In this document: one piece after another, positions 12,543 to 61,604 of the stretch
Layout of the letters: the number at the start of each line of letters is the position of its first letter
How positions within the stretch are numbered: position 1 is the stretch's first letter
Source of the DNA: a virus
Direction: 5' to 3' (one strand)
DNA: 64,000 bases
IMG/VR virus record: IMGVR_UViG_3300032313_001465
Coordinates: 1 to 64,000 of that record
Notes under the pieces: model-generated
Told to the model about the DNA's origin: nothing
The model's database searches: none
What the model saw: only the letters and a program-made list of their open reading frames with translations
Made by a program: the position numbers and the translations under genes

Positions 12543-13451
12543 ATGAAAAAACAAAAAGACCATGTAGTACTTTCATTAAGTGGAGGTTTAGATTCAAGCA
12601 CATTATTATTACGTTGCTTATCCGAGTACAAAAGTGTTACAGCTATCTCATTCTTTTATGGACAAAAACATTCAGTAGAGTTAGAGAGAGCTCAATCATT
12701 GGTATATTATTTAAACCAACAATCTGGACCTAATGCTCTTATCAAACCTATTACTTATCGTCAAATTAGATTGGAAGGATTATCTGATTTACTTGTGAGT
12801 GGATTAGTAGATAATGATTCTATGGAAATGAAAAAAGGACATTATGCTCATGAGAACGCATTAACTTCCGTTGTACCTAACCGTAATGCCATATTTGCAT
12901 CCATTACTTATGCTGTAGCTCTTTCTGTAGCTAAAAGAACTGGAGAAAGATGTGACATAGCACTTGGAACGCATATGGGGGATTTTAATAATAAAACTCA
13001 ATCTGGAATATATCCAGATTGTTCTGAAGAATTTAAATCTGCATTAGAACACGCATTTAAAATAGGAAATTGGGATTCAGATAAAGTAAATTATTGGGCC
13101 CCATATAATGTTACAGATAAAACTGGAGTATTAGAAGATGGTATAAAGAATTGCGAATTATTAGGTTTAGATTATAGAGAAATATATAAACGTACTAATA
13201 CTAGTTATTCTCCCATATTTGTTAAAGATGAAGAAAAAACAAAATTAGCAGGACTAACAGAATCTACTCCGGGAATTGGGGTTTGGTATAGTGATATATA
13301 TTCAGGATCTAGTATTGAAAGGTGTGAGAGTTTTATTAAGTTAGGATTGGAAGATCCATTACAATACTGTGAAAATGATGGAACTTTAGTATCTTGGGAT
13401 TATGTTAAAGAAAAGGTAGAAGAAATTTGTAAAGAATTTAACTCTAAATAA
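12543..13451 (+). CDS. queC: 7-cyano-7-deazaguanine synthase QueC
   Basis: 302 residues, longer than the roughly 220-230 usual for bacterial QueC. PP-loop ATPase motif SLSGGLDSSTLLL at 11-23; FYGQKHSVELERA is the expected next block, and NRNAIFASIT and GTHMGDFNNKTQSGIYPDC follow. Converts CDG to preQ0 with ATP and ammonia. The usual C-terminal zinc-binding cysteines look replaced: where TCY and CGxCxxC are expected one reads TSYSP and GSSIERCESF, with one Cys left. The enzyme may be zinc-free or altered. Confidence 0.85.
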   Translation: MKKQKDHVVLSLSGGLDSSTLLLRCLSEYKSVTAISFFYGQKHSVELERAQSLVYYLNQQSGPNALIKPITYRQIRLEGLSDLLVSGLVDNDSMEMKKGHYAHENALTSVVPNRNAIFASITYAVALSVAKRTGERCDIALGTHMGDFNNKTQSGIYPDCSEEFKSALEHAFKIGNWDSDKVNYWAPYNVTDKTGVLEDGIKNCELLGLDYREIYKRTNTSYSPIFVKDEEKTKLAGLTESTPGIGVWYSDIYSGSSIERCESFIKLGLEDPLQYCENDGTLVSWDYVKEKVEEICKEFNSK

Positions 13452-21311: not shown

Positions 21312-22919
21312 ATGTCAAAACAAAAAATTGAATTGGGAGCTAACTCCCGAAAGAAGTTATTACAAGGAATTAATAAAATATCCGACGTAGTTACTAGTAC
21401 ATTAGGTCCTCATGGTAGAAATATCATCTATTCAGATGGAAATTCTGTTAACAGTACAAAAGATGGGGTTTCAGTAGCAAAGAGAGTAAATGTATTAGAA
21501 GATCCTATTGAAGATTTGGGTGCACAATTAATTAAACAAGCATCAATCAAAACAGCAGATGCAGCAGGTGATGGTACAACAACATCTACCCTATTAGCTA
21601 GTAAAATGATTAATGATGGTTTTAAATACCTTAATAATGGTGAAAATGCAGTTCAAATCAAAAGAGATATTGATATTGCTGTTAAACAAGTAGTAGAATA
21701 CATCCATAAAGATATTAAAGAAACAATTTCATCAGAAGATCAACTTGAGCAAATTGCTACTATCTCAGCTAATAATGATGTTGAAACTGGAAAATTAATA
21801 GCAACCGCTATGAGTAAGGTAGGGATTGAAGGAGTAGTACACATTGAAGAAAGTAAAACCGGAGAAACATATTTAGAAACAGTAGAAGGCATGCAATTCG
21901 ATAGAGGATACAAATCTCACTATTTTGTTACTGATAATAACACTATGTCTTGTTTATTAGATAACCCATATATCCTAATAGCAGATAGTAGATTTAATAC
22001 AGTAAAAGAACTTTTACCAATTTTGGAAGGAGTTTCAAATACTGGTCGTTCGCTTTTAATTATCGCCGAAGATATTGATAATGAAGCATTAGCCACTCTT
22101 ATTGTTAATAAAATGAGAGGTACAATCAAAGTATGTGCTGTTAAAGCCCCTGATTTTGGAGATAGACGTAAATTAATCCTAGAAGATATTGCAGTTCTAA
22201 CAGGAGGACAAGTGTTTAGTAAAGAAAAAGGAATGAAATTAGAGAAATTTAATTGGGATTGGTTTGGTGAAGCTAGAATTGTTACTGTTAAAAAAGAACA
22301 AACCACAATTGTTGATGGTAAAGGTAATGAGACAAGTATTTCTTCACGTATTGAAGAATTAAAACTTCAAATTGAAAAATCAACAACCGCTTTTGAAACT
22401 GAAAAATTACAAGAACGTTTAGCTAAATTTACGGGTGGAGTAGCAATTATTCATGTTGGTGGCAATACAGAAACTGAGATGAAAGAGAAAAAAGACAGAG
22501 TAGATGATGCTTTACATGCTACTAAAGCAGCTATTGATGAAGGCATCGTTCCGGGTGGTGGTATTGCTTTAATTAAGGCTCGTAAAAGTATCACTAATAA
22601 AAGTATAGGATCTCAAATAGTATACGAAGCATGTTCAGCTCCATTTAAAAAAATATTATCAAATGCCGGACATAGTGACGAAAGTATTTATAAAATTATG
22701 ACTAGTTTACCTGATAAGTTAGTTTGGGGAGGTTATGATTTAAAAAATGATAAGTATGTAAATATGAAAGATAAAGGCATTATCGATCCTGCTAAAGTAG
22801 TAAGATGTGCTTTAGAAAATGCAGCTTCAGTAGCTGGTATTGTATTATTAACTGAAGGAGCTATTATAGATGTTCCTGAAGAAAAGAATACAGCTGTTGA
22901 CCCACAACAGTTTTATTAA
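21312..22919 (+). CDS. groEL: GroEL chaperonin
   Basis: 535 residues, full length. ATP-binding [14 protein letters not shown] and [13 protein letters not shown] in the equatorial domain; [22 protein letters not shown] in the apical domain; [19 protein letters not shown] near the C-terminus. Some bacterial positions are changed (for example S/N-rich start, no Gly-Gly-Met tail). A phage carrying both GroES and GroEL is uncommon, since most rely on host GroEL. Confidence 0.93.
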
Positions 22920-24189: not shown

Positions 24190-24218
24190 AATCCTCTTTT
24201 TCAAAAGGATTAATTTTG
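24190..24218 (+). terminator. Hairpin ahead of the homing endonuclease
   Basis: AATCCT (24190-24195) pairs with AGGATT (24206-24211), extended by T/A pairs, and is followed by AATTTTG. May limit read-through from the replication operon into the endonuclease gene. Confidence 0.5.
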
Positions 24219-24251
24219 CAATATTTATTATCGCCAAACAAAAATATTGCG

Positions 24252-24908
24252 ATGATACATACTACTAAAATATATCTTTTACACAGAGGAGATAATATTC
24301 CCTTTTACATAGGAAAAACCACTCAACCTTTAAAAAAAAGAAATAAGCAACATCTAGAAAATTTTGGGATTTGTTATTTAGAAGAAATTGATGAGATTCC
24401 AACTTCTGAATGGAAATTTTGGGAATGTCATTATATATCACTATATAAAAGTTGGGGTTTTATACTTAAAAATAAGAATAAAGGGGGAGGTGGTTTAACA
24501 TTTATGGATGAAAAATCTAAAGATAAAATTCGAAATAAACTTAAAAATAGAATTTATAAAGATGAATGGAAATTAAATGTATCTAAGGCAACTGCTGGTA
24601 AAACTAAGAACCACCCAATAACTCGAGGAGTAAATATAAGTAAAGCTAAAAAAGGAATTTCAAATCCAAACTTATCACTCTCAAGAATAGGAGTACCTCA
24701 CCCAAAGAAATTTAGGACATTATATCAATTTGACTTAACGGGGGTATTAATTAAAGAGTGGAAATCCGAAGATATATTTAATATACCTAAATTTGAAAGA
24801 AATAACATATGGGCGGCTGCTCGAGGAAAACAAAAAACCTCAGGAGGTTATGTGTGGAAATATGAAAATAAAATTAATTTATATGAAAAAGAAGATCCAA
24901 CAAAATAG
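24252..24908 (+). CDS. GIY-YIG homing endonuclease
   Basis: 218 residues from ATG 24252. Catalytic domain at the N-terminus: KIYLLHRGDNIPFYIGKT with the GIY-YIG equivalents (I-Y-L and Y-I-G), then Arg in KKRNKQHL and a Glu in WKFWECHYI. The middle holds Lys-rich DNA-binding repeats (SKDKIRNKLKNR; GVNISKAKKGISNPNLS) and the end a NUMOD-like FDLTGVLIKEWKS and IWAAARGKQKTSGGYVWKY. It lies between the 23919 gene and gp62 and shares its last codons with the gp62 start through the direct repeat. Confidence 0.88.
   Translation: MIHTTKIYLLHRGDNIPFYIGKTTQPLKKRNKQHLENFGICYLEEIDEIPTSEWKFWECHYISLYKSWGFILKNKNKGGGGLTFMDEKSKDKIRNKLKNRIYKDEWKLNVSKATAGKTKNHPITRGVNISKAKKGISNPNLSLSRIGVPHPKKFRTLYQFDLTGVLIKEWKSEDIFNIPKFERNNIWAAARGKQKTSGGYVWKYENKINLYEKEDPTK
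24880..24907 (+). repeat. Right copy of direct repeat flanking the GIY-YIG gene
   Basis: Second copy of the 28-nt repeat at 24157-24184. It encodes both the C-terminus of the endonuclease (frame 1) and the first residues of gp62 (MKKKIQQN, other frame). Confidence 0.85.
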
Positions 24909-26739: not shown

Positions 26740-28182
26740 ATGAAAGAAAAAGTAGGTTATAAACCCCCAAACCAAAGACGTCGCATTTTACTAATATGCG
26801 ATGATATTCGCGCATTTTCCGGAGTTGCAAACATTGCGCGTGAAATAGTAGTAAATACATGTCATCACTATGATTGGGTAACATTAGGAGGAGCAATCAC
26901 CCACCCTGAAAAAGGTAAAAGATTAGACTTATCTGCAGATACAAATAACTTAGCTGGAATCAATGATTCTAGTGTAATAATGTATCCGACTGATGGTTAT
27001 GGGAATCCTGAATTATTAAGGGCAATTATAAAATTAGATAAACCTGATGCTATAATGCTTATAACTGATCCAAGATATTTTGTTTGGTTATTTCAAATGG
27101 AGAATGAGCTTAGAAAACAAATTCCTATAGTTTATCTTAATATATGGGATAGTGTTCCTGCTCCAATGTATAATAAAGAATTTTATGAAAGTTGTGATGC
27201 TTTATTAGGTATATCTAAGCAAACTGTCTTTATTAATAAGAACGTTTTAGGTAGTAAAGCTAAAAATAAAATCATATCATACGTACCTCATGGTTTAAAT
27301 CATAAATCTTTTCGTCCATTAAGTGAAGAAGAATTAAATTCTAAAGAGTATATAGAATATAAAAATAATATTACTAAGGGTAAAGAATATGATTTCATAT
27401 TGTTCTTCAACTCTAGAAACATCAGACGAAAAAGCATTCCTGATACTATCTTAGCTTGGAAGATGTTTAATGATCAACTTACAGAAGCCGAGAAAAAGAA
27501 ATGTTTATTTGTTCTACATACTAATGCAATAGATGAGAATGGAACTGATTTACCAGCAGTAATTGAGTATTTATGTAGTGAAGAAAACAATGTTGTTATT
27601 GATGAATCCAAAGCATCAATAGATCAAATGAATTGGTTATACAATATGGCTGATGGTACTATTTTGTTGACTTCAAATGAAGGTTGGGGATTATCATTAA
27701 CTGAAAGTATGTTAGCAGGTACTCCGATAATTGGAAACGTAACTGGAGGTATGCAAGATCAAATGAGATTTGAAGATGAAAATGGAAATTGGTTTACTCC
27801 AGATGAAAATATACCTTCTAATCATAAAGGAACATTTAAAAAATGTGGTAAATGGGCAATTCCAGTATTCCCAACAAATAACTCATTAGTAGGTTCAATT
27901 CCTACTCCATATATTTTTGATGATAAATGTCAATCAGAAGATGCAGCTCAAGCAATTATGGAATTATATAAAAAATCTAAAGATGAAAAGAAAGAAATGA
28001 GCGATGCAGCAAGAGAATGGGCAATAAGTGATGAAGCTGGATTTACAGCAGAAAAAATGAGTAATAGAGTTATTAAAAGTATTGATGAATTATTTAGTAC
28101 CTGGAAACCTAGAGAAAAATATGAATTGTTAAGAGATACTGACTATGAACCGAGGACTCTCAAACACAAATTAGTATATTAA
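26740..28182 (+). CDS. Glycosyltransferase, GT4-like (GT-B fold)
   Basis: 480 residues. RRILLICDDIRAFSGVANIARE at the N-terminus with the glycine-poor nucleotide-fold start; VPHGLNHKSFRP and the C-terminal NEGWGLSLTESMLAGTPIIG with the E-x7-E pair of GT4 enzymes. Retaining transfer of a sugar from a nucleotide donor. It opens the long carbohydrate cassette; target could be virion proteins, phage DNA or host glycan. Confidence 0.85.
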   Translation: MKEKVGYKPPNQRRRILLICDDIRAFSGVANIAREIVVNTCHHYDWVTLGGAITHPEKGKRLDLSADTNNLAGINDSSVIMYPTDGYGNPELLRAIIKLDKPDAIMLITDPRYFVWLFQMENELRKQIPIVYLNIWDSVPAPMYNKEFYESCDALLGISKQTVFINKNVLGSKAKNKIISYVPHGLNHKSFRPLSEEELNSKEYIEYKNNITKGKEYDFILFFNSRNIRRKSIPDTILAWKMFNDQLTEAEKKKCLFVLHTNAIDENGTDLPAVIEYLCSEENNVVIDESKASIDQMNWLYNMADGTILLTSNEGWGLSLTESMLAGTPIIGNVTGGMQDQMRFEDENGNWFTPDENIPSNHKGTFKKCGKWAIPVFPTNNSLVGSIPTPYIFDDKCQSEDAAQAIMELYKKSKDEKKEMSDAAREWAISDEAGFTAEKMSNRVIKSIDELFSTWKPREKYELLRDTDYEPRTLKHKLVY

Positions 28183-28241
28183 TTTTAAATAAGAAATATA
28201 TCTTTGTATACCTTTTTATATCTTTACATATTTATAATAAA

Positions 28242-28385
28242 ATGAAAAAATCTATAATTATTAACGAAGAAATCCATACTCAATTAAAAAAATATTGTGA
28301 TGAAAGAGGATTAAAACTTCAAAAATTTATAGAAAAATTAATTTTAAAAAATATTAAAGATGAAAAAACAATGCCCCAATTGTAA
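28242..28385 (+). CDS. Ribbon-helix-helix mini-protein next to HNH gene
   Basis: 47 residues. KSIIINEEIHTQLKKYCDERG then LKLQKFIEKLILKNI: strand plus two helices as in RHH/CopG-type repressors. Overlaps the HNH gene by 26 nt. May repress the endonuclease operon. It is too short for most gene finders, but its composition and overlap are gene-like. Confidence 0.6.
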   Translation: MKKSIIINEEIHTQLKKYCDERGLKLQKFIEKLILKNIKDEKTMPQL

Positions 28386-29001
28386 AGAAGAAAAACAACA
28401 TAGTGAATTTTATAAATGTTCTTCTAAAATTGATGGTTTACAATCATATTGTAAATTGTGTACGAAAGAGAAATTTAAAGAGTCTAAAAGGAAAAGTGAT
28501 AAAAAATATCAAAGTAAGTACTATTCTATTTTAAATAATAAAAATAAGAGAAAAGAATATATTAGAGAATATCAATCCGCTAATCCTGAAAAGCAGAAAT
28601 GCTATGTTAAAAAACATAGCCAAACTACAAAAGGCATTCAGACTCGAAAGAGTTGGAGAAAGAAAGAATATCAAGAAAAATATGGTAAAGATCCCATATT
28701 TACTTTAAAAATAACTTTAAGGAATAGATTAAAAAACGCAATGCATAAAGGATTTAAAAAAGGTAAAACTTTAGATATGTTAGGTTGTTCTATTGAAGAA
28801 TTTAAATTATATTTAGAACAACAGTTTAAACCTGAGATGAATTGGAGTAATTATGGAAAATACTGGGAATTAGATCATATTAAACCATGTGACTCTTTTA
28901 ATTTAGAAATTTTGAAAGAACAATATGAATGTTTTAATTATAAAAATATTCAACCTTTAGAAGTAAGTAAAAATAGAATTAAATCAAATAAATATGAATA
29001 A
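28360..29001 (+). CDS. HNH homing endonuclease
   Basis: 213 residues. N-terminal zinc ribbon (CPNCKEEKQHSEFYKC and CKLC), long Lys-rich linker (about 30-115), and a C-terminal HNH core: YWELDHIKPCDSF with the paired catalytic residues and YKNIQPLEVSKNRIKSNKYE. Free-standing, inserted between two glycosyltransferase genes; overlaps the next gene by 8 nt. Confidence 0.87.
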   Translation: MKKQCPNCKEEKQHSEFYKCSSKIDGLQSYCKLCTKEKFKESKRKSDKKYQSKYYSILNNKNKRKEYIREYQSANPEKQKCYVKKHSQTTKGIQTRKSWRKKEYQEKYGKDPIFTLKITLRNRLKNAMHKGFKKGKTLDMLGCSIEEFKLYLEQQFKPEMNWSNYGKYWELDHIKPCDSFNLEILKEQYECFNYKNIQPLEVSKNRIKSNKYE

Positions 29002-30313
29002 ATTAAAATGTGTAATTTACGCCCCTATTAATTGCTATAGCGGATATTCAGCACGCTCACGCGATATTGTTAAAGCATTAATTGATCTTTATAAGGACAC
29101 TTGGGATATTAAAATATTTCCTTGTAGATGGGGAAACACACCTCAAGGATTCTCAGATGATAATCCTGAATGGAAATTCTTAGAAGAATATTCGCTAACA
29201 ACTCCACAATTACAATATCAACCGGATATAATGATATGGATAACAATTCCAGCTGAATTCCAAAAAGTAGGAAAAGTAAATATAGGTATTACAGCCGGTA
29301 TAGAAACAACAATATGTGATGGTTCTTGGATTGAAGGCTGTAATAGAATGGATTTGGTGTTAGTTTCATCTGAACATGCTAAAACAGTATTTAAAAATAC
29401 TAAATTCAATAGACAAAACCCACAAACCCAACAACTAGAAGGTAAAGTTGAATTATCAACTAAGATGGAAGTACTATTTGAAGGGGCTAATTTATCAGTA
29501 TATAAACCAATCCCCTCAGAAGATGTTAAAAATATTGATCTAAGCTCAGTTAAAGAACAATTTGCTTTCTTATTTTGTGGACATTGGATGAATGGAGAAT
29601 TTGGGGAAGATCGCAAAAATGTATCTTTATTAGTTAAAGCATTTTACGAGACATTTAAAAACAAAACCAATCAACCTGCTCTTATCCTAAAAACTAGTGG
29701 TGGTGCCTCATCTTATATGGATAGAAGAGAAATACTTAAGAAATTAGATAGTATTCGAAAATCTGTAAATTCTAACAAAATCCCACCTGTTTATTTATTA
29801 CATGGAGAATTCTCAGATGGTGAAATGAACGAATTATATAACCACCCAAAAATAAAAGCAATGGTTTCACTTACTAAAGGTGAAGGATTTGGTAGACCAT
29901 TACTTGAATTTAGCATGATTAATAAACCAATTATAGCATCTAATTGGAGTGGACATATTGATTTTCTTGATCCTGAATTTAGTTATTTGGTTAATGGTGA
30001 ATTAAAAAATGTACATCCATCAACTGTTGTTCCAAATATGATATTAGCTGAGTCTCAGTGGTTTTCTCCAAATCATGGAGAAATAGGAAATGCATTTAGA
30101 ACAGTATTTGAAAACTATAAAGATGCAGCTGTAAAGGGTAAAAGACTTGGATTTAAGAATAGAAAGGAATTTAGTTGGGATGCTATGAAGGATAAAATGA
30201 AGATCATTTTTGATGAAATTGATGCTAAAATTCCTCGTGCCGTAGCTCTTAAGTTACCTCAACTTCGTAAAATAGAGCTTCCAAAACTCACTAAAATTGA
30301 ACCACAAAAATAA
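28994..30313 (+). CDS. Glycosyltransferase, GT4-like
   Basis: 439 residues. CVIYAPINCYSGYSARSRDIV at the N-terminus; FLFCGHWMNGEFGEDRKNVSLLVKAF opens the C-terminal nucleotide-sugar domain; LTKGEGFGRPLLEFSMINKPIIAS is the donor-binding E-x7-E region. Pro/Leu/Lys-rich tail repeats (LPQLRKIELPKLTKIE). Probably paralogous in role to the enzyme at 26740. Confidence 0.83.
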   Translation: MNKLKCVIYAPINCYSGYSARSRDIVKALIDLYKDTWDIKIFPCRWGNTPQGFSDDNPEWKFLEEYSLTTPQLQYQPDIMIWITIPAEFQKVGKVNIGITAGIETTICDGSWIEGCNRMDLVLVSSEHAKTVFKNTKFNRQNPQTQQLEGKVELSTKMEVLFEGANLSVYKPIPSEDVKNIDLSSVKEQFAFLFCGHWMNGEFGEDRKNVSLLVKAFYETFKNKTNQPALILKTSGGASSYMDRREILKKLDSIRKSVNSNKIPPVYLLHGEFSDGEMNELYNHPKIKAMVSLTKGEGFGRPLLEFSMINKPIIASNWSGHIDFLDPEFSYLVNGELKNVHPSTVVPNMILAESQWFSPNHGEIGNAFRTVFENYKDAAVKGKRLGFKNRKEFSWDAMKDKMKIIFDEIDAKIPRAVALKLPQLRKIELPKLTKIEPQK

Positions 30314-30319
30314 AATAAA

Positions 30320-30793
30320 ATGAAAGATAATTTAATTACATGTCCGATGACTAAAGAACCATTATGCTACGTAACTGAAGTAGCTCCTGGTATTAATAAC
30401 TATATGAGTTTATCTTCGGGTTATTTCACTAATTCATTGATGATAGAAGGAGAAGATTTTTATAATGAACAAATCGAACTTCTACCTGAATTATATAAAC
30501 AATTAGCTTGGAAAGACCCTGAAACCGAAATGGTTTGGTTACCACAAAGTATTAATTTACCAGCATCAGGAATGGTGTTTATAAACGGAACTTCAGTTGA
30601 AGATTGGGAATGGGTAGGAGTATTAGCAACTAAGGTTACTGATGAAGAAAAAGAAAAATATCCAGTTCCAGGTAAAAAAGGTGAATTTTATGAATATAAA
30701 ATGGATATGAAGACTATGAAAAAATTTGGTAAAAATGGCTTTATTGATTCTTTAGATTATATAGGAGTTATGCCTAGAGGTGTGGAGAACTAA
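30320..30793 (+). CDS. Conserved hypothetical protein in glycan cassette
   Basis: 157 residues. Begins with ITCPMTKEPLCYVTEVAPGINNYMSLSSGYFT (in parts) and has Trp-rich middle (EDWEWVGVLATKVTDEEKEKYPVPGKKG). I do not recognise a function. Six nucleotides after a glycosyltransferase, so likely in the same transcript. Confidence 0.75.
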   Translation: MKDNLITCPMTKEPLCYVTEVAPGINNYMSLSSGYFTNSLMIEGEDFYNEQIELLPELYKQLAWKDPETEMVWLPQSINLPASGMVFINGTSVEDWEWVGVLATKVTDEEKEKYPVPGKKGEFYEYKMDMKTMKKFGKNGFIDSLDYIGVMPRGVEN

Positions 30794-30816
30794 AATATAT
30801 TTATTATATTAACTCC

Positions 30817-31470
30817 ATGAAATTATCATATTGTATTTGTGCCCATAATGAACATGTTGAATTAGAAAAATTACTTCATTTTTTAAAGGAAAATATCCGA
30901 GAAGAGGACGAAGTAATAATTCAACTAGACTCAACATATACTCCTGAAGTGTTAGAGGTTTGTAATTTATTTACTAATTTTAATCATAAAGGACATATTG
31001 AATCTCAATCCATACTTAATAGTAAATGGTATATATTCCCACTAAATAACGACTTTGCTTCGTTTAAAAATGAATTAATACGCAATGCTAGTGGAGATGT
31101 TCTAATACAATTAGATGCAGATGAGATTCCACACCCATGTTTAATAAAAAATTTACCAATAGTAATAGAAGAAAATCCTGAAATAGATGTATTCATTATT
31201 CCTAGAGAAAATTTTACTATTGGAATAGAGGAGAAACATTTGAAAGAATGGGGATGGAATATAGATGAAAAGGGTAGAAACTGTTGGCCTGATTTCCAAA
31301 TGCGAGCTTTTAGATTAAATAGAGGAATATGTTGGAAGAATCGAGTTCATGAAGTTTTAACTAACTATCAAACATATACTGCTTTCCCTGCAGACGAAAT
31401 ATGGAGTTTAAATCACACAAAAACAATCCAAAGACAAGAAATACAAAACCACTACTATAATACGTTATGA
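30817..31470 (+). CDS. Glycosyltransferase, GT2-like (GT-A)
   Basis: 217 residues. YCICAHNEHVELEKLLHFL at the start and SGDVLIQLDADEIPHP as the D-x-D metal site (about 92-107). C-terminal WKNRVHEVL is typical of small GT2 enzymes. Overlaps the next gene by 4 nt (ATGA). Confidence 0.8.
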   Translation: MKLSYCICAHNEHVELEKLLHFLKENIREEDEVIIQLDSTYTPEVLEVCNLFTNFNHKGHIESQSILNSKWYIFPLNNDFASFKNELIRNASGDVLIQLDADEIPHPCLIKNLPIVIEENPEIDVFIIPRENFTIGIEEKHLKEWGWNIDEKGRNCWPDFQMRAFRLNRGICWKNRVHEVLTNYQTYTAFPADEIWSLNHTKTIQRQEIQNHYYNTL

Positions 31471-32279
31471 AATTATTTGTAAATCACCTTAGTGAGGAAA
31501 ATATAAAAAAAAATCTTAAATCAATAGAACATACAGATTTTTCTTTATTTATTGATGATATTCCAAAATTTCAAAATAATTTATCCTCAATTAATATCTT
31601 AGTACTTCAAGAACCAAATGAATATTTTGGTTTACATGATTGGGCTATTCAAAATAAAAACTTATTCTCATTCATATTAACTTGGGATGATAAGATATTA
31701 AATAATTGTGAAAACGCTATATTTCTTCCATTTGGTCATACTTGGTTTACTTCAGATCAATATGAACGAGATTACAATAAAGAATTCAAAATATCTCATT
31801 TAAGAGGGAACTTATTAAAGTCATATGGACATCAAATGCGTTGGGATATTCTAGATAGAAAAAATGAAATAAAAATTCCCACTAAATTTTTTGATGTATA
31901 TGGTGATAGATATGATATTAAAGATGCTAAGAAAGGTAAAGAAGAAGTTTTTGGAGATTCAATGTTTGGAATAGCTATTGAAAATTTTTCTCACCGAGGA
32001 TATTTCACTGAAAAAATATTAGATTGTTTTTTATTAAAAACTATTCCCATATATAATGGGTGTTCTAATATAGGTGATTTCTTTAATAAAGAAGGAATTA
32101 TAGAATTTGGAAATGTGGATGATTTTATTTATATTAGTAATCAATTAACCGAAGAATTTTATATATCTAAAAAACATATTATAGAAGAAAACTACCAATT
32201 AGCCCTTCAGTATGTTGATTATGAACAAAACATAATTAATAAAATAAAAGAAATATTTAACCTAAATCAATTAATATGA
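31467..32279 (+). CDS. GT10-like (fucosyltransferase-type) glycosyltransferase
   Basis: 270 residues. The C-terminal block FGIAIENFSHRGYFTEKILDCFLLKTIPIYNG (in parts, about 167-198) matches the E-N-x..Y-x-T-E-K-x..P-I-Y signature of GT10 enzymes. The N-terminal half is more divergent. Predicted to add fucose or a similar deoxysugar. Confidence 0.75.
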   Translation: MKLFVNHLSEENIKKNLKSIEHTDFSLFIDDIPKFQNNLSSINILVLQEPNEYFGLHDWAIQNKNLFSFILTWDDKILNNCENAIFLPFGHTWFTSDQYERDYNKEFKISHLRGNLLKSYGHQMRWDILDRKNEIKIPTKFFDVYGDRYDIKDAKKGKEEVFGDSMFGIAIENFSHRGYFTEKILDCFLLKTIPIYNGCSNIGDFFNKEGIIEFGNVDDFIYISNQLTEEFYISKKHIIEENYQLALQYVDYEQNIINKIKEIFNLNQLI

Positions 32280-33418
32280 AAAAAGTATGGTATGCCCCTT
32301 ATAAATTTGAATCTTATGGAGAAGAAGAAATTAAAGCTGTAGAAGAATCTCTTCGTTCAGGATGGTTGGGGGGACAAGGTCCTAAATCTATTGAATTTGA
32401 AGAAGAAATAGCTAAACGTTTTGGTAAAAAATATGGTGTATTTGTTAACTCAGGTTCATCTGCTAATTTATTAGCTTTAGCAGCTTTAAATTTACCAAAA
32501 GGTAGTAAAATAATTACTCCAGCATGTACTTTTGCTACAACACTTGCCCCAATTATCCAACTAGGATATATTCCTATTTTTGTGGACGTGGTTTTAGACA
32601 GTTATGTAGCAGATATTGATCAAATCATTAAAGCCATTACCCCAGAAATAAAAGCTATTATAATACCCAATTTAATAGGAAATAAAATTGATTGGAAAAA
32701 ACTTAAAGATAATTTAAGATTATTAGGAAGAAAAGATATATACTTAATTGAAGATTCCGCAGATACTATTACATATACTTCTGAGAGTGATGTATCTACT
32801 ACTAGTTTTTATGCTTCACATATTATAACGGCAGGTGGAGTAGGGGGAATGGTTATGTTTAATGATAAGAAACAAGTTGAATTGTGTCTACAATATAGAG
32901 ATTGGGGTAGAATTGGTGGTGACTCTGAAGCTATGGAAGATCGTTTTAACCATAAAGTGGATGGTATTCCATATGATCATAAATTTTTATATGGTGTTTT
33001 AGGTTATCATATGAAAGCTTGTGAAATGAATGCTGCTTTTGGTTTAGTTCAATTAAATCGTTTTGAAAAATTTTCTCAAATAAGAAGACAAAATATTAAA
33101 CGTTATATAGAAAACTTACAAAATGTAGGAGATTTAATTCTTCCTGATGACTCTATTGAACCTAATTGGTTAGCAATTCCATTACAAACAGAAAATCGTT
33201 ATGAGTTGCTTAATTTTTTAGAAACAAATAATATCCAAACTCGCGTAACATTTGCTGGTAATGTAACTCGCCATCCTATTTACAGAGAATATCTACAACC
33301 ATTTGAAAACTCGGATGTTATTATGAAAAATGGGTTTTTATTAGGTGCCCACCATGGAATGAATATTGAAGACGTAGATTATGTTTGTAATAAAATTAAA
33401 GAATTTTTTAATAGATAA
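32276..33418 (+). CDS. PLP-dependent sugar 3-dehydrase, ColD/RfbH-like (DegT family)
   Basis: 380 residues, DegT/DnrJ/EryC1 fold. NSGSSANLLAL (phosphate loop), IIPNLIGN and LIEDSADT (PLP-Asp). Where aminotransferases have the PLP lysine, this has His: SFYASHIITAGGVGG. ColD and RfbH/E1 share that His and remove a 3-hydroxyl instead of transferring an amino group. The following YRDWGR also matches them, but the RfbH iron-sulfur cysteines are absent, so ColD-type is favoured. It likely makes a 3-deoxy-4-keto sugar. Confidence 0.82.
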   Translation: MKKVWYAPYKFESYGEEEIKAVEESLRSGWLGGQGPKSIEFEEEIAKRFGKKYGVFVNSGSSANLLALAALNLPKGSKIITPACTFATTLAPIIQLGYIPIFVDVVLDSYVADIDQIIKAITPEIKAIIIPNLIGNKIDWKKLKDNLRLLGRKDIYLIEDSADTITYTSESDVSTTSFYASHIITAGGVGGMVMFNDKKQVELCLQYRDWGRIGGDSEAMEDRFNHKVDGIPYDHKFLYGVLGYHMKACEMNAAFGLVQLNRFEKFSQIRRQNIKRYIENLQNVGDLILPDDSIEPNWLAIPLQTENRYELLNFLETNNIQTRVTFAGNVTRHPIYREYLQPFENSDVIMKNGFLLGAHHGMNIEDVDYVCNKIKEFFNR

Positions 33419-34029
33419 TGGATTTAAAAAAACGAATAGTCGAAATTGCTTTTAAACACAAATTAGGTCATTTAGGAAGCTATCTTTCTAGTGTTGAAAT
33501 AATAAATGAAATATATTCTAAAATGGATAAAGATGATATATTCATCTTATCCTCAGGGCATGCTTCATTAGCGATGTATGTTTGTATAGAAAAATATTTT
33601 GGTATTAATGCAGAAATGTTATTTTTAAAACATGGGGGCCATCCCCACAGAGATGAAGAAAATAAGATTCACTGTTCAACAGGTAGTTTAGGTTTAGGTT
33701 TACCAATTGCATTAGGTAGAGCTTTATCTAATCGTACTAGAAAAGTATGGGTACTAATTAGCGATGGTGAAGCAGCTGAAGGTAGTATATGGGAATCACT
33801 CAAAACTATACAAGAGTTGGAAATTGATAATATTGAAGTGTTTGTAAATATAAATGGAGTTTGTGCCTACAAGGAAGTAAACCCAGAGTATATGACGGCA
33901 AGGCTTAAAGCATTTTTATCAAGAATACAGTTAAGATATACTACAGTCGAGCAATATCCTTTTTTAAAAGGACTTAATGCTCATTATCACATTATGGATG
34001 ATCACGATTATAAATCAACACTATTATGA
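33418..34029 (+). CDS. Transketolase-like, N-terminal (TPP) subunit
   Basis: 203 residues. FILSSGHASLAMY (His), CSTGSLGLGLPIALGRAL and SDGEAAEGSIWESLKTI, the thiamine-diphosphate G-D-G..N-like segment, mark the PP domain. It overlaps the dehydrase stop by 1 nt and pairs with the next gene. Two-gene transketolases next to RfbH/ColD-type dehydrases occur in bacterial polysaccharide clusters and may attach a two-carbon branch. Confidence 0.85.
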   Translation: MDLKKRIVEIAFKHKLGHLGSYLSSVEIINEIYSKMDKDDIFILSSGHASLAMYVCIEKYFGINAEMLFLKHGGHPHRDEENKIHCSTGSLGLGLPIALGRALSNRTRKVWVLISDGEAAEGSIWESLKTIQELEIDNIEVFVNINGVCAYKEVNPEYMTARLKAFLSRIQLRYTTVEQYPFLKGLNAHYHIMDDHDYKSTLL

Positions 34030-34502
34030 GAAAAGCATTTGCACAACTTTTGCACGCTGAAATGGCTACCAATCCAGATATTTATCTAATTACAGGTGAT
34101 TTAGGATATGGATTATGGGATAAGGTTAGAGACGATTACCCAGATAGATTTTATAATGTAGGCTCTTCTGAGATGGTTATGATGGGAGCAGCTATTGGAT
34201 TAGCTATGGATAAAAAGATACCTTATGTTTATTCCATTACACCATTTGCAATTTACAGACCTTTTGAAATGATACGTAACTATCTTGATCATGAAAAGAT
34301 ACCAGTAAACATCATAGGTGGAGGAAGAGATAAAGAATATGGTTATTTAGGGTTTTCACACTGGTCTCACGATGATAAAAAGATAATGAGTGTATTTGAT
34401 AATATTAAGTCTTTTTGGCCTGAAAATGAGGAAGAAATGGCTATTACGTTTAATCAAACGTTGACAAAAAAAGTCCCAACTTACATAAATTTAAAACGAT
34501 GA
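34026..34502 (+). CDS. Transketolase-like, pyrimidine-domain subunit
   Basis: 158 residues, Pyr domain of transketolase: LITGDLGYGLWDKV, FYNVGSSEMVMMGAAIGLAM with the conserved Glu activating thiamine, and PFAIYRPFEMIRN. Lacks the C-terminal third domain of full-length transketolase. Overlaps both neighbours by 4 nt, implying a tight complex with the N-terminal subunit. Confidence 0.85.
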   Translation: MRKAFAQLLHAEMATNPDIYLITGDLGYGLWDKVRDDYPDRFYNVGSSEMVMMGAAIGLAMDKKIPYVYSITPFAIYRPFEMIRNYLDHEKIPVNIIGGGRDKEYGYLGFSHWSHDDKKIMSVFDNIKSFWPENEEEMAITFNQTLTKKVPTYINLKR

Positions 34503-35278
34503 AAATATTAATAACAGGAGGTAACGGATACATTGCTAAGAGCTTAAACAAAGCTTTTAAGGATGCTTATGATGTTACTCTAATCACACGACAAGACTTT
34601 GATCTACTAGATAGTAGGGCTGTAAACTTCTGGTTTAAGGATAAATATTTTGATGTTGTGATACACACCGCTGTAGCTGGTGGTAGCAGGTTAAAACCTG
34701 ATATCGCTGAAGTATTAGATATAAACCTGATAATGTATTATAATTTAATTAGCAATCGTGATAGGTTTGATAAATTTATACATTTTGGATCGGGTGCTGA
34801 GCTATTAATGAAAGATACACCTTATGGTTTAAGTAAGCATATTATTCGAGAGTCTTTATTGATTAAAGCGAATTGCTATAACATTAGAATATATGGAGTA
34901 TTTGATGAAAACGAATTAGATACAAGATTTGTTAAATCAAATATAAAACGGTATATTAATAAAGGGCCAATGCTAGTACAAGATAAAAAAATGTCTTTTT
35001 TCTATATGGAGGATTTAGTTATGCTGGTCAAACATCACATAGATACAGATGCATCAAAATTAATGCAAGAATGTAGTTGTGCATATATACAAGAGACATC
35101 TTTATTGGATATCGCTAACATAATTAATCAATTGAGTGATTACAGAATACCAATTTACATGGATACACAACCTAGCATGGACTATCAATCAGAACTTAAT
35201 GCACCGTATGGATTAAAGTATATTGGGCTAAGACAAGGAATAATAAACACTTATAATAAATTAAAAAATGAATATTAA
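34499..35278 (+). CDS. NAD-dependent epimerase/reductase (SDR)
   Basis: 259 residues. Rossmann start ILITGGNGYIAKSLNKAF (G-x-x-G-x-x-A), FDVVIHTAVAGG, and TPYGLSKHII with the Y-x-x-x-K catalytic pair. Works on nucleotide sugars as epimerase, dehydratase or ketoreductase; the exact reaction is not visible. Its place after dehydrase and transketolase suggests it reduces a keto sugar. Confidence 0.85.
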   Translation: MKILITGGNGYIAKSLNKAFKDAYDVTLITRQDFDLLDSRAVNFWFKDKYFDVVIHTAVAGGSRLKPDIAEVLDINLIMYYNLISNRDRFDKFIHFGSGAELLMKDTPYGLSKHIIRESLLIKANCYNIRIYGVFDENELDTRFVKSNIKRYINKGPMLVQDKKMSFFYMEDLVMLVKHHIDTDASKLMQECSCAYIQETSLLDIANIINQLSDYRIPIYMDTQPSMDYQSELNAPYGLKYIGLRQGIINTYNKLKNEY

Positions 35279-36209
35279 AATAATGCTCCACATAATGCCG
35301 TGGGATATAGATTATGCATTGTTAATTTTTGATAAGTTGAAGCAGTCCTCTTATTTTATAAATAGTGATGATAAAATTTATATTGATTCTTTTTTAAATT
35401 TATCGCATGATATAATTGATTGGGATAATTCTACATTTCCAAAAGAATATTTTATAAAAAAATATCAAGTATTAGATGACTTAATAAAAAATGTTTTTAT
35501 TCATAAACCATTTATATATGATAAAGAGGGGATTTATGGTCATTTAGATTCCCAAAAAACAATAATTGAATCACATATTGATTACTATATAGGGTTATGT
35601 CCCGATGTTGATTTTCAAGAACATCTTCTTTATTACTTAATAGAATCGGCTAAACAAATAAAAAATGAATATTTTGTTTTAACACCACAAATTTTTAAAT
35701 GTTGGGATTCAAGTTGGGATATTTTAGTAAATTCAAAATTCCAACAAATTCCATATAGTCAATGTTACAATATTGATATCCATAAAATACGACATGATTG
35801 TTTAGAATTAGATACTCCTATATTAAAAAAATCTCCTGTTTTTAAATTTGCCGGTTGGCTAGATTTATACAATAAGAACTTTTATGAGAAATTAATTCCT
35901 ACCTTAGATGAATGGAAAGGTTACGGTCCTTGGGATCTATACGCTATGAATGTGTGTGAGATAGCTAAATCTAAAGGGGTAGATGTAGAACAATACATTT
36001 TGGAAAATCAAGTAATATGGTTTAAAGATGTGGGTTGTTGGCAAAATAAAGAAGAACATGCAGGTCATGGGAAAATAAGATTAATTTATAAAGATTTTTT
36101 ATCAATAATAATTGGAAGACAAGAACAGAGATCATATATTGATACAAATATGGTTCAATATTTAAATCAATGGGTAGAATATGCTAAAAATAATAATATA
36201 ATTAAATAA
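35268..36209 (+). CDS. Probable glycosyltransferase-like protein
   Basis: 313 residues. YFVLTPQIFKCWDSSWDILV and GYGPWDLYAMNVCEIAKSKGV look like a GT-A-type enzyme that handles large sugar chains, and CPDVDF (about 105) could be a D-x-D-like site. The family is not firmly recognised. It overlaps the epimerase gene by 11 nt. Confidence 0.6.
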   Translation: MNIKIMLHIMPWDIDYALLIFDKLKQSSYFINSDDKIYIDSFLNLSHDIIDWDNSTFPKEYFIKKYQVLDDLIKNVFIHKPFIYDKEGIYGHLDSQKTIIESHIDYYIGLCPDVDFQEHLLYYLIESAKQIKNEYFVLTPQIFKCWDSSWDILVNSKFQQIPYSQCYNIDIHKIRHDCLELDTPILKKSPVFKFAGWLDLYNKNFYEKLIPTLDEWKGYGPWDLYAMNVCEIAKSKGVDVEQYILENQVIWFKDVGCWQNKEEHAGHGKIRLIYKDFLSIIIGRQEQRSYIDTNMVQYLNQWVEYAKNNNIIK

Positions 36210-36212
36210 AAT

Positions 36213-36908
36213 ATGAAAACAATTACAACTTATGAAGATCTAGTCCAAGATCTTATTGATAATAAAATTACTATGGTTCGACCAGATGAATTTAAAACTA
36301 TACTTAAGCACTATCCTAAAATATCTGAGGTAGAAGGAGATATAGTAGAATGTGGGGTCTGGAGAGGTGGATTTTCAATATTTCTAAGTTACATATTTCA
36401 AGATAAAAATATCTGGGTATGTGACTCATATGAAGGATTTCAACCTTTAGAAACTGCTAAACATAAATATGATAAAGAAAGACATATTCCCCAATATACA
36501 CATAATGCTATAGGCCCATTAGGTATTAGTTTAGAAGAAGTTCAATCCCATTTTAGAAATTATGGTTTAGGAGATCAAGATCGAATTAAATTTTTAAAAG
36601 GATTTGTTAAAGATACCCTACCAACATCAGGAATTGAGAAAATAGCTTTATTAAGGATAGATGTGGACGCATATTCAGCTACATTAGAAACTTTAGAAGA
36701 ACTATATGATAAAGTTCAACCTAGGGGATATATTATTTTTGATGATTCATGTTTATATGAAACTCTAGATGCTATAAAAGTATTTTTTAAACAAAGAAAT
36801 TTACCTGAATTTATAAACCACCCAGTAACTGGTCAACCTTTAAATATTAATGAAAAACACACTGATGATAATTCAGGGTTACCAGCAGGATGTTATATTA
36901 TAAAATAA
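36213..36908 (+). CDS. Macrocin-O-methyltransferase-like (TylF family)
   Basis: 231 residues. VECGVWRGGFSIFLSYI (SAM loop), VCDSYEGFQPL, LRIDVDAYSATLETLEELYDKV and GYIIFDDS are TylF/MycF hallmarks. Methylates a sugar hydroxyl in known antibiotics; here likely a glycan sugar. Confidence 0.87.
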   Translation: MKTITTYEDLVQDLIDNKITMVRPDEFKTILKHYPKISEVEGDIVECGVWRGGFSIFLSYIFQDKNIWVCDSYEGFQPLETAKHKYDKERHIPQYTHNAIGPLGISLEEVQSHFRNYGLGDQDRIKFLKGFVKDTLPTSGIEKIALLRIDVDAYSATLETLEELYDKVQPRGYIIFDDSCLYETLDAIKVFFKQRNLPEFINHPVTGQPLNINEKHTDDNSGLPAGCYIIK

Positions 36909-36915
36909 ATAAGAT

Positions 36916-37623
36916 ATGAAAAAAACACTAACACAAATCGCAAATTCAATTGGAATTGATAAAGGAACAATTACAAATTCATGCCATGGATTTACAAAAA
37001 TGTATGATGATATATTAACTCCTTTAAGAGAAAAATCTATTATTATGTTAGAAATAGGAGTATCTGGGGGCGGTTCTCTTAAAATGTGGGAAGAATATTT
37101 TTCGGATGCTATAATTATTGCTCTAGACATTGTTAATGAGACTCATTTATCAAATGATAAAACTTTTGTTTACCAATTAGATCAATCTGATGAAACTCAA
37201 TTACAAAATTTTGTAAATCAATGTAAAGAAAACGGATACGAATTTGATTTTATTATTGATGATGGAAGTCACCATATGCAAGATCAACAATTAACATTAG
37301 CTTATCTCTTTCCATTATTAAAGTCTCAAGGAATATATGTTATAGAAGATCTCCATACATCTTTACTTCCTAATGGTTATCCATTATACGGAAAACTTAC
37401 AGAAATCTTCCCGGATAGATATAATACTACATTAAATTATCTTTCTCATGGTGTAGATAGTATTTATATTACTGCAGAACAAAATATATATTTAAATAAA
37501 AATATTGATTCTATTAATATACATAATATATTTAATCCTATTATAGATACATGGCATGAATCTTTAGGTGTAGGAAAACCATATATGGGAAGAAGCATAA
37601 CATCATTTATAATTAAAAAATAA
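36916..37623 (+). CDS. Class I SAM methyltransferase, MycE/CmcI-like
   Basis: 235 residues. MLEIGVSGGGSLKMWEEYFSDAIIIALDI (in parts) is the SAM-binding loop and following strand; FDFIIDDGSHHMQDQQLTL carries the metal-binding D-D-G-S-H. These match sugar O-methyltransferases such as MycE. Second of three methyltransferases in a row. Confidence 0.82.
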   Translation: MKKTLTQIANSIGIDKGTITNSCHGFTKMYDDILTPLREKSIIMLEIGVSGGGSLKMWEEYFSDAIIIALDIVNETHLSNDKTFVYQLDQSDETQLQNFVNQCKENGYEFDFIIDDGSHHMQDQQLTLAYLFPLLKSQGIYVIEDLHTSLLPNGYPLYGKLTEIFPDRYNTTLNYLSHGVDSIYITAEQNIYLNKNIDSINIHNIFNPIIDTWHESLGVGKPYMGRSITSFIIKK

Positions 37624-37627
37624 GAAT

Positions 37628-38209
37628 ATGAAGATAATTCAAATAGGAGCTAATAATGGAAAAGATAGTGTTTTTGACTTTATTAAAGAAAATCAAAAAT
37701 TTTTAGAGTTAGCTATACTAGTAGAACCTATACCTTTTATTATTGATGAATTAAAATCTCAATATGAAGGTATAAATAATGTTGTAGTAGAAAATATAGC
37801 TATAACTGACGAAGAAAATTCTGAAAAAATGACTCTATATTATTTAGGAGATAGTAATTATGAGGTAAGTTCCTTTAGTAAGGATCATGTCATAACCCAT
37901 AAACCTCCAGGTTCATCATTTTCATTAGAATCATTAGAAGTTTCTTGTTTAACTATTAATAAGATTATGACTAAATATAATTTAGAAGTAATAGACTATC
38001 TATTTATAGATACAGAAGGATTAGATGTTCATATAATAGCTAGTATTGATTTTACAAAATATAAAATTAAAAATATCATATTTGAAGCTGTTCATACTGA
38101 TGGTGCATTTCATAAAGGGGAAAATTTTAATAAGATATGTAATTATCTAAATCAATTAGAATATAGTCTATCAAATATAGATCAATTAAATATAAAAGCT
38201 AGTCTATGA
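37628..38209 (+). CDS. FkbM-family methyltransferase
   Basis: 193 residues. IQIGANNGKDSVFDFI, VEPIPFIIDEL, then SLEVSCLTINKIM and YLFIDTEGLDVHII, the FkbM signature. Probably methylates a carbohydrate. Overlaps the next start by 4 nt. Confidence 0.85.
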   Translation: MKIIQIGANNGKDSVFDFIKENQKFLELAILVEPIPFIIDELKSQYEGINNVVVENIAITDEENSEKMTLYYLGDSNYEVSSFSKDHVITHKPPGSSFSLESLEVSCLTINKIMTKYNLEVIDYLFIDTEGLDVHIIASIDFTKYKIKNIIFEAVHTDGAFHKGENFNKICNYLNQLEYSLSNIDQLNIKASL

Positions 38210-38934
38210 AAATAATATATAGAATATCAGATTCTGGTTATAACAAAGTAAAACCAGACTATATTACAAACGAAAACTGTCTTAAAAATTTTGTTTACGT
38301 ATTTGGTAATCAAAATCTTGAGATTATAGCAGATAATTGTAGCAAAGAAACACTACAAATGATTACTAAATATGTTTATCCTAACAAAATATCCTCAGTA
38401 TCAGTGGGTCATGGAGCTGGGACATTTAATTTAGCCCTAGATATGGCTTTAAAATGGGATGATGATGAAATAGTTTATTTTGTAGAAAATGATTATTTAC
38501 ATTTACAAAATTCTCCTCAAATACTAGAAGAAGGGTTTAAATTAGGAGCTCCATATGTAACTTTATATCTTCATCCTGATAAATTTATCTCACCCACAAG
38601 TGGTGGGAATCCTGAGGTTGGTGATGATGGTGGGTACTTAACTAGAATTTATAGAGGTGAAACTCAATTATTTGGGATGTTTAATAGTACAACTATGACT
38701 TTTGCTGCTAAAGTAAAAACATTAAAAGAAGATGAGGAAATATTAAGAAAATGGACAAATGGAACTCACCCTGATGATTTTAGAATGTTTCTTGAATTAA
38801 GAGATAAAGGAAATGCATTATTATGTCCCTTAAACACATTCAGCACACATGGTGAAACAAATTGGTTGGCCCCTTTATATAAAATAAAACAAGAAAATCT
38901 AGTTGAAGAATGGAAAAAACACTTATTTCAGTAA
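38206..38934 (+). CDS. Glycosyltransferase-like protein (GT-A)
   Basis: 242 residues. VYFVENDYLHL (about 86-96) is a metal-site-like E-N-D, and LDMALKWDDDEIVYFVEND sits where GT-A enzymes have theirs. WTNGTHPDDFRMFLEL near the C-terminus may hold the acceptor base. The family is not named with certainty. Overlaps the next gene by 25 nt. Confidence 0.65.
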   Translation: MKIIYRISDSGYNKVKPDYITNENCLKNFVYVFGNQNLEIIADNCSKETLQMITKYVYPNKISSVSVGHGAGTFNLALDMALKWDDDEIVYFVENDYLHLQNSPQILEEGFKLGAPYVTLYLHPDKFISPTSGGNPEVGDDGGYLTRIYRGETQLFGMFNSTTMTFAAKVKTLKEDEEILRKWTNGTHPDDFRMFLELRDKGNALLCPLNTFSTHGETNWLAPLYKIKQENLVEEWKKHLFQ

Positions 38935-39674
38935 TTATCCCAACTTACAAATCCCCAGAAATGTTAGATTTATGTCTACGTTCTGCTATTGAGGGCCAAC
39001 AAAATAAAAATCAAATTATAGTTGTTGTAGATGGATTTTATGAATTAAATAAAGAGGTACTTGAAAAATGGTCTGAACATATTGATATTTTAAATCTAGA
39101 ACAAAATGTAGGTTTATGTAGAGGTACTAATTTAGGAGTATATAATGCTAAACACGATAAAGTACTTATTGTGAATGATGACAATGTATTTCCATATGGA
39201 TGGGACAAAGAATTATTGAAAGACTATATCCCAAATTCCGTAATATCCCCAAATCAAATTGAACCCACACCTAGTATGTTTAATCAATTTTATATTAGAG
39301 ATTGTGGGCGTGATCCTAAAACATTTAGTTTAGAAAATTATTGGAAATACGAAGAACCACTACGTGGATTTTTTCCTGATGAAAGTGGTTCTACACTACC
39401 TATTTTCATGTCTAAAATAGATTATTTAAAAGTAGGTGGTTGGGATGAAAACTATGAACAAGGGATGGTAGCAGACTGGGATTTCTTTTTAAAATGTCAA
39501 CTCTCAGGTCTTAAAATGCTTAGAACATATAATTGTCATTTTTACCATTTTGCTTCAGTTTCAGTTAATGGAGAAAAAAGAAGACAAGCTGAAATTCAAG
39601 GTCACGAATATGCTAAATATAAATGGGGGAATTATATAAAACATAACCCAAATACTAACCTTAAATATTTATAA
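38910..39674 (+). CDS. Glycosyltransferase family 2
   Basis: 254 residues. LISVIIPTYKSPEMLDLCLRS, IIVVVDGF, NVGLCRGTNLGVYNAKHDKVLIVNDDNV (D-x-D) and GGWDENYEQGMVADWDFFLKC are classical GT2 motifs. Last enzyme of the cassette. Confidence 0.9.
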   Translation: MEKTLISVIIPTYKSPEMLDLCLRSAIEGQQNKNQIIVVVDGFYELNKEVLEKWSEHIDILNLEQNVGLCRGTNLGVYNAKHDKVLIVNDDNVFPYGWDKELLKDYIPNSVISPNQIEPTPSMFNQFYIRDCGRDPKTFSLENYWKYEEPLRGFFPDESGSTLPIFMSKIDYLKVGGWDENYEQGMVADWDFFLKCQLSGLKMLRTYNCHFYHFASVSVNGEKRRQAEIQGHEYAKYKWGNYIKHNPNTNLKYL

Positions 39675-61473: not shown

Positions 61474-61570
61474 AGTCAGGTGGCGCAATTGGTAGACGTT
61501 GTTCCTCTGTACAAGGAATGTAAAACGAGGTGATCCTCGTAGTATACAGGTTCAAATCCTGTCCTGACTA
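61474..61570 (+). tRNA. tRNA-Tyr (GTA)
   Basis: Acceptor AGTCAGG/CCTGACT with discriminator A; D region GCGCAATTGGTAGACG; anticodon arm TTCCT-CTGTACA-AGGAA giving GTA; long variable arm ACGAGG-TGAT-CCTCGT, expected for class II tRNA-Tyr; T arm ACAGG-TTCAAAT-CCTGT. No CCA encoded. Confidence 0.85.
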
Positions 61571-61604
61571 CAATTGTTGTGTTATTTTTAGTAATAAAAT
61601 ATAT

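Follow-up and report, generated by a model that had tools for sequence, protein, structure and literature searches.

A putative branched-sugar gene module with a split transketolase in an uncultured phage

Gene organization of the locus

The record IMGVR_UViG_3300032313_001465 of the IMG/VR database belongs to an uncultured virus and comprises 148,581 bases; the window analysed here is its first 64,000 bases, and L-numbers denote the other loci that were compared with it. Four overlapping genes on the plus strand at 32276-35278 of the window were confirmed, which encode a sugar 3-dehydrase, the N and C subunits of a split transketolase, and a short-chain dehydrogenase/reductase (SDR). An initial annotation of the sequence had proposed that they form a phage-encoded pathway for a branched sugar. 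From the upstream glycosyltransferase gene of the GT10 family onward, successive genes overlap by 4, 1, 4 and 4 nucleotides (nt), and the SDR gene overlaps the next one by 11 nt. All four proteins score above the Pfam gathering cut-offs (PF01041, PF00456, PF02779 and PF01370). The positions of the open reading frames (ORFs) and the Pfam matches of the genes and their neighbours bear out the coordinates, the 1-4 nt overlaps and the location within a glycosyltransferase and methyltransferase cassette that the initial annotation had given. The genes have the same order in further viral contigs, where protein identities are 60-86% for the dehydrase and the transketolase.

Sequence and structural features of the enzymes

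The first gene (32276..33418, plus strand) encodes a predicted nucleoside diphosphate (NDP)-4-keto-6-deoxyhexose 3-dehydrase of 380 amino acids (aa), which belongs to the DegT/RfbH/ColD superfamily (PF01041, 2.6e-71). The nearest solved structures are E1 (3bcx, 5.9e-59, 203.7 bits) and then ColD (3b8x, 3e-38, 135.5 bits). The position of the lysine that binds pyridoxal 5'-phosphate is occupied by a histidine, His182, in 13/13 aligned homologues, and the neighbouring columns contain no lysine; His182 aligns with His220 of E1. This replacement of the catalytic lysine by histidine is a hallmark of the 3-dehydratases (PMC8987622). The alignment revealed no [2Fe-2S] four-cysteine motif of the E1/RfbH kind in the window-type dehydrases; L003 and L011 have separate RfbH proteins that carry the cysteines, and the RfbH protein of L016 has at least some of them. 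The score against the RfbH equivalog NF011936 is 274.8 bits, below the cut-off of 423. E1 and SpnQ have the [2Fe-2S] cluster, whereas ColD lacks it (PMC8987622). Because the cluster cysteines are missing, the deoxygenation is likely to follow a ColD-like, Fe-S-free route, although the sequence is closer overall to E1. ColD, a GDP-4-keto-6-deoxymannose 3-dehydratase, is likewise a dehydrase of the pyridoxamine 5'-phosphate (PMP) type with histidine in place of lysine and no Fe-S cluster; its difference from the window enzyme lies in the latter's greater similarity to E1.

The second and third genes encode the pyrophosphate-binding N subunit (33418..34029, plus strand, 203 aa; PF00456, 33.2 bits, 3.5e-08, cut-off 22) and the pyrimidine-binding C subunit (34026..34502, plus strand, 158 aa; PF02779, 8.2e-16) of a transketolase. 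The closest solved relatives of both are the chains of the split transketolase from Carboxydothermus hydrogenoformans: the N subunit matches 6yak at 1.4e-13, and the C subunit matches 6yaj at 1.4e-15, or at 1.3e-22 by profile. In the N subunit, His18, His48, His75, D116-G117-E118, N144 and N146 are invariant in 20 sequences. The three histidines align with the transketolase active-site histidines, and the GDG...N motif is intact. The glutamate that activates thiamine diphosphate (ThDP) corresponds to Glu49 of the C subunit, which is invariant in 16 sequences.

The substrate-binding positions are different. The Carboxydothermus chains are longer (309 and 341 aa) and carry the canonical sugar-binding motif THAGLTVGEDGASHQ in 6yaj, whereas the phage C subunit reads GGGRDKEYGYLGFSHW at the aligned positions. 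The canonical His, Asp and Arg positions are G100, L108 (in 15/16 sequences) and N155 in the C subunit, the arginine being replaced by an invariant asparagine. In yeast transketolase, the His, Asp and Arg at these positions bind the phosphate and the hydroxyls of ordinary substrates. In the Pfam scan of the 158-aa C subunit only PF02779 was found, and no Transketolase_C domain. As far as the alignments indicate, the pair retains its catalytic machinery and has a remodelled substrate site.

Minimal split transketolases also occur on contigs of metagenome-assembled genomes (MAGs) classified as Patescibacteria, Omnitrophota, Elusimicrobia and other groups. The MAG homologues (L106, L107, L111-L121) have genes for an NDP-sugar SDR, a methyltransferase and GT2 as neighbours. 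Four further MAG contigs (L102-L105) combine RfbH and an RmlB-like gene with the transketolase; most of these four also have an SDR, and some of them may be of viral origin and misbinned. In deposited phage genomes, only distant matches to the transketolase were obtained. A sugar C-methyltransferase-like gene (PF13489 and PF08484) lies between a 4,6-dehydratase-like gene and the transketolase at L088:10008-11108, and this operon may also produce a branch of another kind.

The fourth gene (34499..35278, plus strand) encodes an extended SDR of 259 aa, a predicted nucleotide-sugar ketoreductase (PF01370, 9.3e-13). Its AlphaFold model has a predicted local distance difference test (pLDDT) value of 93.7, and the top folds are GDP-4-keto-6-deoxymannose epimerase/reductases, with template modelling (TM) scores of 0.73-0.81. 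The protein contains the Rossmann motif and the Ser-Tyr-x3-Lys triad, of which S98, Y109 and K113 are invariant. It scores 24.8 bits against the RmlD model TIGR01214, for which the cut-off is 224. No match to this SDR was found in deposited phage genomes. The SDR is proposed to work as a ketoreductase after the branching step. The next gene (35268..36209, plus strand) encodes a probable GT-A glycosyltransferase (model pLDDT 89.6); its fold matches are mostly to GT-A enzymes, at low TM scores of about 0.33-0.46, and the protein has no Pfam match. Homologues of this gene occur in 35/80 SDR loci and mostly follow the SDR immediately, and the modelled enzyme is a candidate for the transferase of the branched sugar.

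The initial annotation had named a ColD/RfbH-type 3-dehydrase, a two-gene transketolase and a nucleotide-sugar reductase/epimerase. All three assignments agree with the present results: the first through the DegT fold, His182 and the 3-dehydrases as nearest structures; the second through PF00456, PF02779 and the matches to both Carboxydothermus chains; the third through PF01370, the GDP-fucose-synthase-like fold and the catalytic triad.

An exchangeable slot between the dehydrase and the SDR

Comparison of the related loci showed that homologous GT10, dehydrase, SDR and GT-A genes enclose one of three types of ThDP enzyme. This dehydrase-SDR slot contains the split transketolase pair in the window and in L002, L006, L049, L055, L056 and L059; a decarboxylase-type ThDP enzyme of 595 aa in L022 and others; and an alpha/beta pair similar to pyruvate dehydrogenase E1 in L050. 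The best solved match of the L022 enzyme is 8rph (555.8 bits), and the enzyme reads NCDGG at the cofactor motif. The structure 8rph is that of JanthE, which resembles YerE, branches ketones and has CDG as its cofactor motif (PMC12188165). In a 2025 review (PMC12247030), the branching of keto sugars is ascribed to three ThDP superfamilies: the decarboxylases (YerE), the E1-type alpha-KADH2 enzymes, and the transketolases.

The linkage was assessed by scans of IMG/VR, which covered 20 transketolase loci, 80 of 142 dehydrase relatives, and the best 80 of 290 SDR relatives. A ThDP enzyme lies at most 6 genes upstream of the SDR in 80/80 SDR loci (transketolase 18, YerE-like 54, E1 5, YerE-like plus E1 3); this count is partly a selection effect, since the query alignment was built from ThDP-linked copies. 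A fairer test is provided by 57 non-redundant dehydrase loci, which were long enough to score and were not chosen for linkage. The SDR is present in 23 of these 57 loci, and a ThDP enzyme accompanies it in 23/23; in 26 loci with an RmlD-like reductase instead of the SDR, a ThDP enzyme was found only once (1/26). The reverse scans placed the SDR at most 5 genes downstream in 65/72 E1-type loci and in 23/30 YerE-type loci. On the tree of 91 SDRs, in which many branches are weakly supported, there are at least 25 changes of ThDP enzyme type, and the SDRs linked to the transketolase do not cluster; this is consistent with repeated swapping.

A strict pairing of the dehydrase with the transketolase was rejected, as an RmlD-like reductase occurs in many dehydrase loci, and in many transketolase loci a 4,6-dehydratase takes the place of the dehydrase.

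Proposed pathway

From their sequences, the four genes very probably form the core of a phage-encoded route to a nucleotide-activated C-branched deoxysugar. The pathway suggested in the initial annotation is strongly supported by the comparison, in particular by the swapping of the slot among three branching ThDP families and by the dehydrase-based linkage (23/23). The identity and order of the genes, their active-site residues, their recurrence and the replacement of the ThDP enzyme in the slot are observed; the individual reactions, the donor, the nucleotide, the branch position and the destination of the sugar are inferred. An NDP-4-keto-6-deoxyhexose from the host pool would first be 3-deoxygenated by the PMP-dependent, ColD-like dehydrase without an Fe-S cluster. 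The two-subunit transketolase would then attach two carbons, probably as a hydroxyacetyl group, at the ketone carbon, which would yield a tertiary alcohol. The SDR would reduce the ketone in the added branch to give a 4-C-(1,2-dihydroxyethyl)-3,6-dideoxyhexose or a similar sugar, and the neighbouring GT-A enzyme would move this sugar onto a glycan of the phage or the host; the sugar may also be methylated.

The acceptor is probably an NDP-4-keto-6-deoxyhexose, 3-deoxygenated where the 3-dehydrase is present, because a dTDP-glucose-4,6-dehydratase-like gene usually precedes the ThDP enzyme where the dehydrase is not adjacent. These 4,6-dehydratase-like proteins score near 300 bits and do not reach the equivalog cut-off. 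Across the wider family not every locus has the 3-dehydrase, and often it is a 4,6-dehydratase that adjoins the transketolase. Neither a 4,6-dehydratase (PF16363) nor an NDP-sugar nucleotidyltransferase (PF00483) was found on the 148.6-kb contig, which may be incomplete; the window phage therefore probably draws the NDP-4-keto-6-deoxyhexose from the host pool. In a 269-kb relative, a second cluster (L313:3620-6538) combines a gene resembling GDP-mannose 4,6-dehydratase with a short SDR and a dehydrase of the ColD type that has an SFYFGHH motif; this phage apparently has a colitose-like pathway as well. The GDP-mannose 4,6-dehydratase-like gene was considered as a clue to the nucleotide and rejected, since it belongs to this second cluster with its own dehydrase.

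The genes around the ThDP enzymes also bear on the donors. The YerE-type loci contain either an acetylating acetaldehyde dehydrogenase with a 4-hydroxy-2-oxovalerate aldolase, both above the NCBIfam cut-offs, or a PanB ketopantoate hydroxymethyltransferase (above the NCBIfam cut-off), or an HpcH/HpaI aldolase. Keto-acid enzymes or an AroB-like cyclase were observed beside YerE-like enzymes at L153:4158-6004, L074:10930-11865, L028:9816-10613 and L130:1864-4320. The donors of the erwiniose enzyme ErwE are 4-hydroxy-2-oxo acids. It is possible that the extra enzymes beside the YerE-like genes, as judged from their families, provide a dedicated donor supply for longer sugar branches. No keto-acid-making genes were seen in the window-type transketolase loci, and this absence is consistent with a ketol from central metabolism as the donor of the transketolase.

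We lean towards the broader reading that this large, uncultured phage group makes branched sugars by a modular set of genes, in which the ketoreductase is constant and the slot exchangeable, so that each phage makes a different C-branched sugar and the transketolase uses a nucleotide-sugar ketone. If so, the transketolase version would yield hydroxyacetyl-branched sugars, so far unseen in phages, and some phages would carry dedicated alpha-keto-acid donor genes for the branched sugar of their own glycan. Such phages would be an overlooked source of unusual sugars. Glycan remodelling could help them to evade defences or to alter adsorption, and the natural slot variants would be a ready enzyme panel for making chiral tertiary alcohols.

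Comparison with known systems

The pathway logic is known already; the new elements are the phage setting, the transketolase in a branching role outside Streptomyces, and the exchangeable slot. Bacterial O-antigens and antibiotics are known to contain branched sugars made by ThDP enzymes, and literature searches for branched sugars in phages returned nothing relevant. Contigs with 'lipopolysaccharide islands' of glycosyltransferase and nucleotide-sugar genes were left out of a worldwide catalogue of metabolic genes from ocean viruses (PMC11360552), which may help to explain why the phage pathway was missed.

A close parallel in logic is the pathway by which Yersinia pseudotuberculosis makes yersiniose A (E1, YerE and a reductase). 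It also combines a 3-dehydrase with a ThDP-dependent two-carbon addition at the 4-keto carbon and an expected final ketoreduction, and its genes also lie within a glycan cluster. However, YerE is a single decarboxylase-type flavoprotein that uses pyruvate, E1 contains [2Fe-2S], and the sugar is CDP-linked, whereas the window, from a phage, pairs a dehydrase lacking the Fe-S cysteines with a split transketolase. Of the components of a YerE-type pathway, the upstream 3-dehydrase and the nearby reductase are present in the window, but a decarboxylase-superfamily ThDP enzyme is not. The likeness to yersiniose, with a ThDP enzyme of another family, had been pointed out in the initial annotation and holds. 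The yersiniose ketoreductase was uncharacterised as of 2016 (PMC4753412), and the SDR family described here is a candidate for a branch-ketoreduction step of this type.

The split transketolases of the miharamycin, amipurimycin and other Streptomyces clusters, which were compared by their descriptions, are similar in that two genes lie in a sugar cluster and a hydroxyacetyl branch on a keto sugar is proposed. The window pair differs in its phage origin, its minimal size (361 aa for the pair) and its 3-dehydrase context. According to the account of Krug et al. 2024 given in the review (PMC12247030), the 13 putative branching transketolases are all split-gene enzymes, all from Streptomycetes and all unassayed. 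JanthE homologues fill the same slot in related phages, and the donors of ErwE fit the aldolase genes there; JanthE and ErwE are related to the window transketolase only via the shared fold of the ThDP enzymes. The alpha-KADH2 enzymes of aldgamycin, kibdelomycin and paulomycin resemble the E1 alpha/beta-type pairs in the slot of L050, L098 and many phage loci; however, the known enzymes come from antibiotic clusters and use pyruvate, and the phage pairs are short (209+178 aa).

Alternative explanations

Several points weigh against the branching pathway as proposed. In the literature, transketolases acting on ketone acceptors are only proposed, and the 2025 review lists no assay of the transketolase route on a keto sugar (PMC12247030). 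The remodelling of the acceptor site is read from alignments, the selection effect reduces the weight of the 80/80 count, and the SDR could act before the branching, as an epimerase. Several transketolase loci have no 3-dehydrase nearby, which implies that the acceptor need not always be a 3-deoxy sugar.

In one alternative, the transketolase branches an NDP-4-keto-6-deoxysugar that retains its 3-hydroxyl, the adjacent dehydrase serving a separate second sugar. An RmlB-like 4,6-dehydratase lies near the ThDP enzyme, with no 3-dehydrase in the examined stretch, in 24 YerE and 4 transketolase loci, and the dehydrase has other partners elsewhere. In the window-type phages, however, the dehydrase is directly upstream with a 1-nt overlap, the contig has no 4,6-dehydratase match, and both yersiniose and erwiniose derive from a 3,6-dideoxy-4-keto sugar; this alternative is quite improbable.

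It is very unlikely that the product of the dehydrase and the SDR is a plain 3,6-dideoxyhexose like colitose or paratose, with the transketolase acting separately in pentose and NADPH metabolism during infection. Phages do carry pentose-pathway genes, and many dehydrase loci have an RmlD-like reductase next and no ThDP enzyme, the layout expected for a simple dideoxy sugar. However, the RmlD-like reductases go without ThDP enzymes, whereas the 256-aa SDR type occurs only with them. The slot also takes YerE-like and E1-like enzymes, the sugar-phosphate-binding residues of the transketolase are replaced, and the genes form one operon with overlaps of 1-4 nt. The initial annotation had reckoned with a transketolase acting only on ordinary sugar phosphates; the swapped slot and the altered sugar-binding positions weaken this objection.

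Its other objection, a sugar aminotransferase that would lead to an amino sugar, was rejected as extremely improbable: the members of the DegT/DnrJ/EryC1 family are mostly aminotransferases, but His182 replaces the catalytic lysine throughout the 13 homologues aligned and the closest solved structures are 3-dehydrases.

Genomic setting and other features of the window

The branched-sugar module lies within a glycan island (26740..39674, plus strand), together with GT10-like, GT2 and GT1-type glycosyltransferases and TylF/FkbM-type methyltransferases. The island is flanked by genes for DNA polymerase, a DnaB-type helicase, a UvsX-like recombinase, ribonucleotide reductase, GroEL, DNA ligase, RNA ligase and thymidylate synthase. 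These genes on its two sides mark the island as part of the phage genome rather than a stray O-antigen island from a host. The GT10 (fucosyltransferase-like) gene (31467..32279, plus strand; PF00852, 26.1 bits, cut-off 23.9) is located directly 5' of the dehydrase, and the same arrangement is found in relatives. A TylF-type O-methyltransferase gene (36213..36908, plus strand; PF05711, 3.1e-43) is retained alongside the module in L006, L059 and L070, and the encoded enzyme possibly modifies the sugar. The island also contains an FkbM-family methyltransferase gene (37628..38209, plus strand; PF05050, 1.2e-16).

Some additional features of the window were observed. A phage-encoded GroEL-like chaperonin lies at 21312-22919 (phrog_5725, 489.8 bits). 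A QueC-like queuosine/7-deazaguanine gene is located at 12543-13451, and DNA modification is possible. An ORF that is HNH-like by eye (28360-29001) and a weakly GIY-YIG-like ORF (24216-24908), near or inside the island, are possible homing endonucleases. One tRNA was predicted at 61474-61571, with an odd four-base anticodon call (gtac). Shine-Dalgarno-like motifs precede the starts of 2/51 ORFs, against a background of 11.6%, and A-rich peaks occur near -5 and -11 of the start codons (51 ORFs); this pattern suggests a Bacteroidota-like host.

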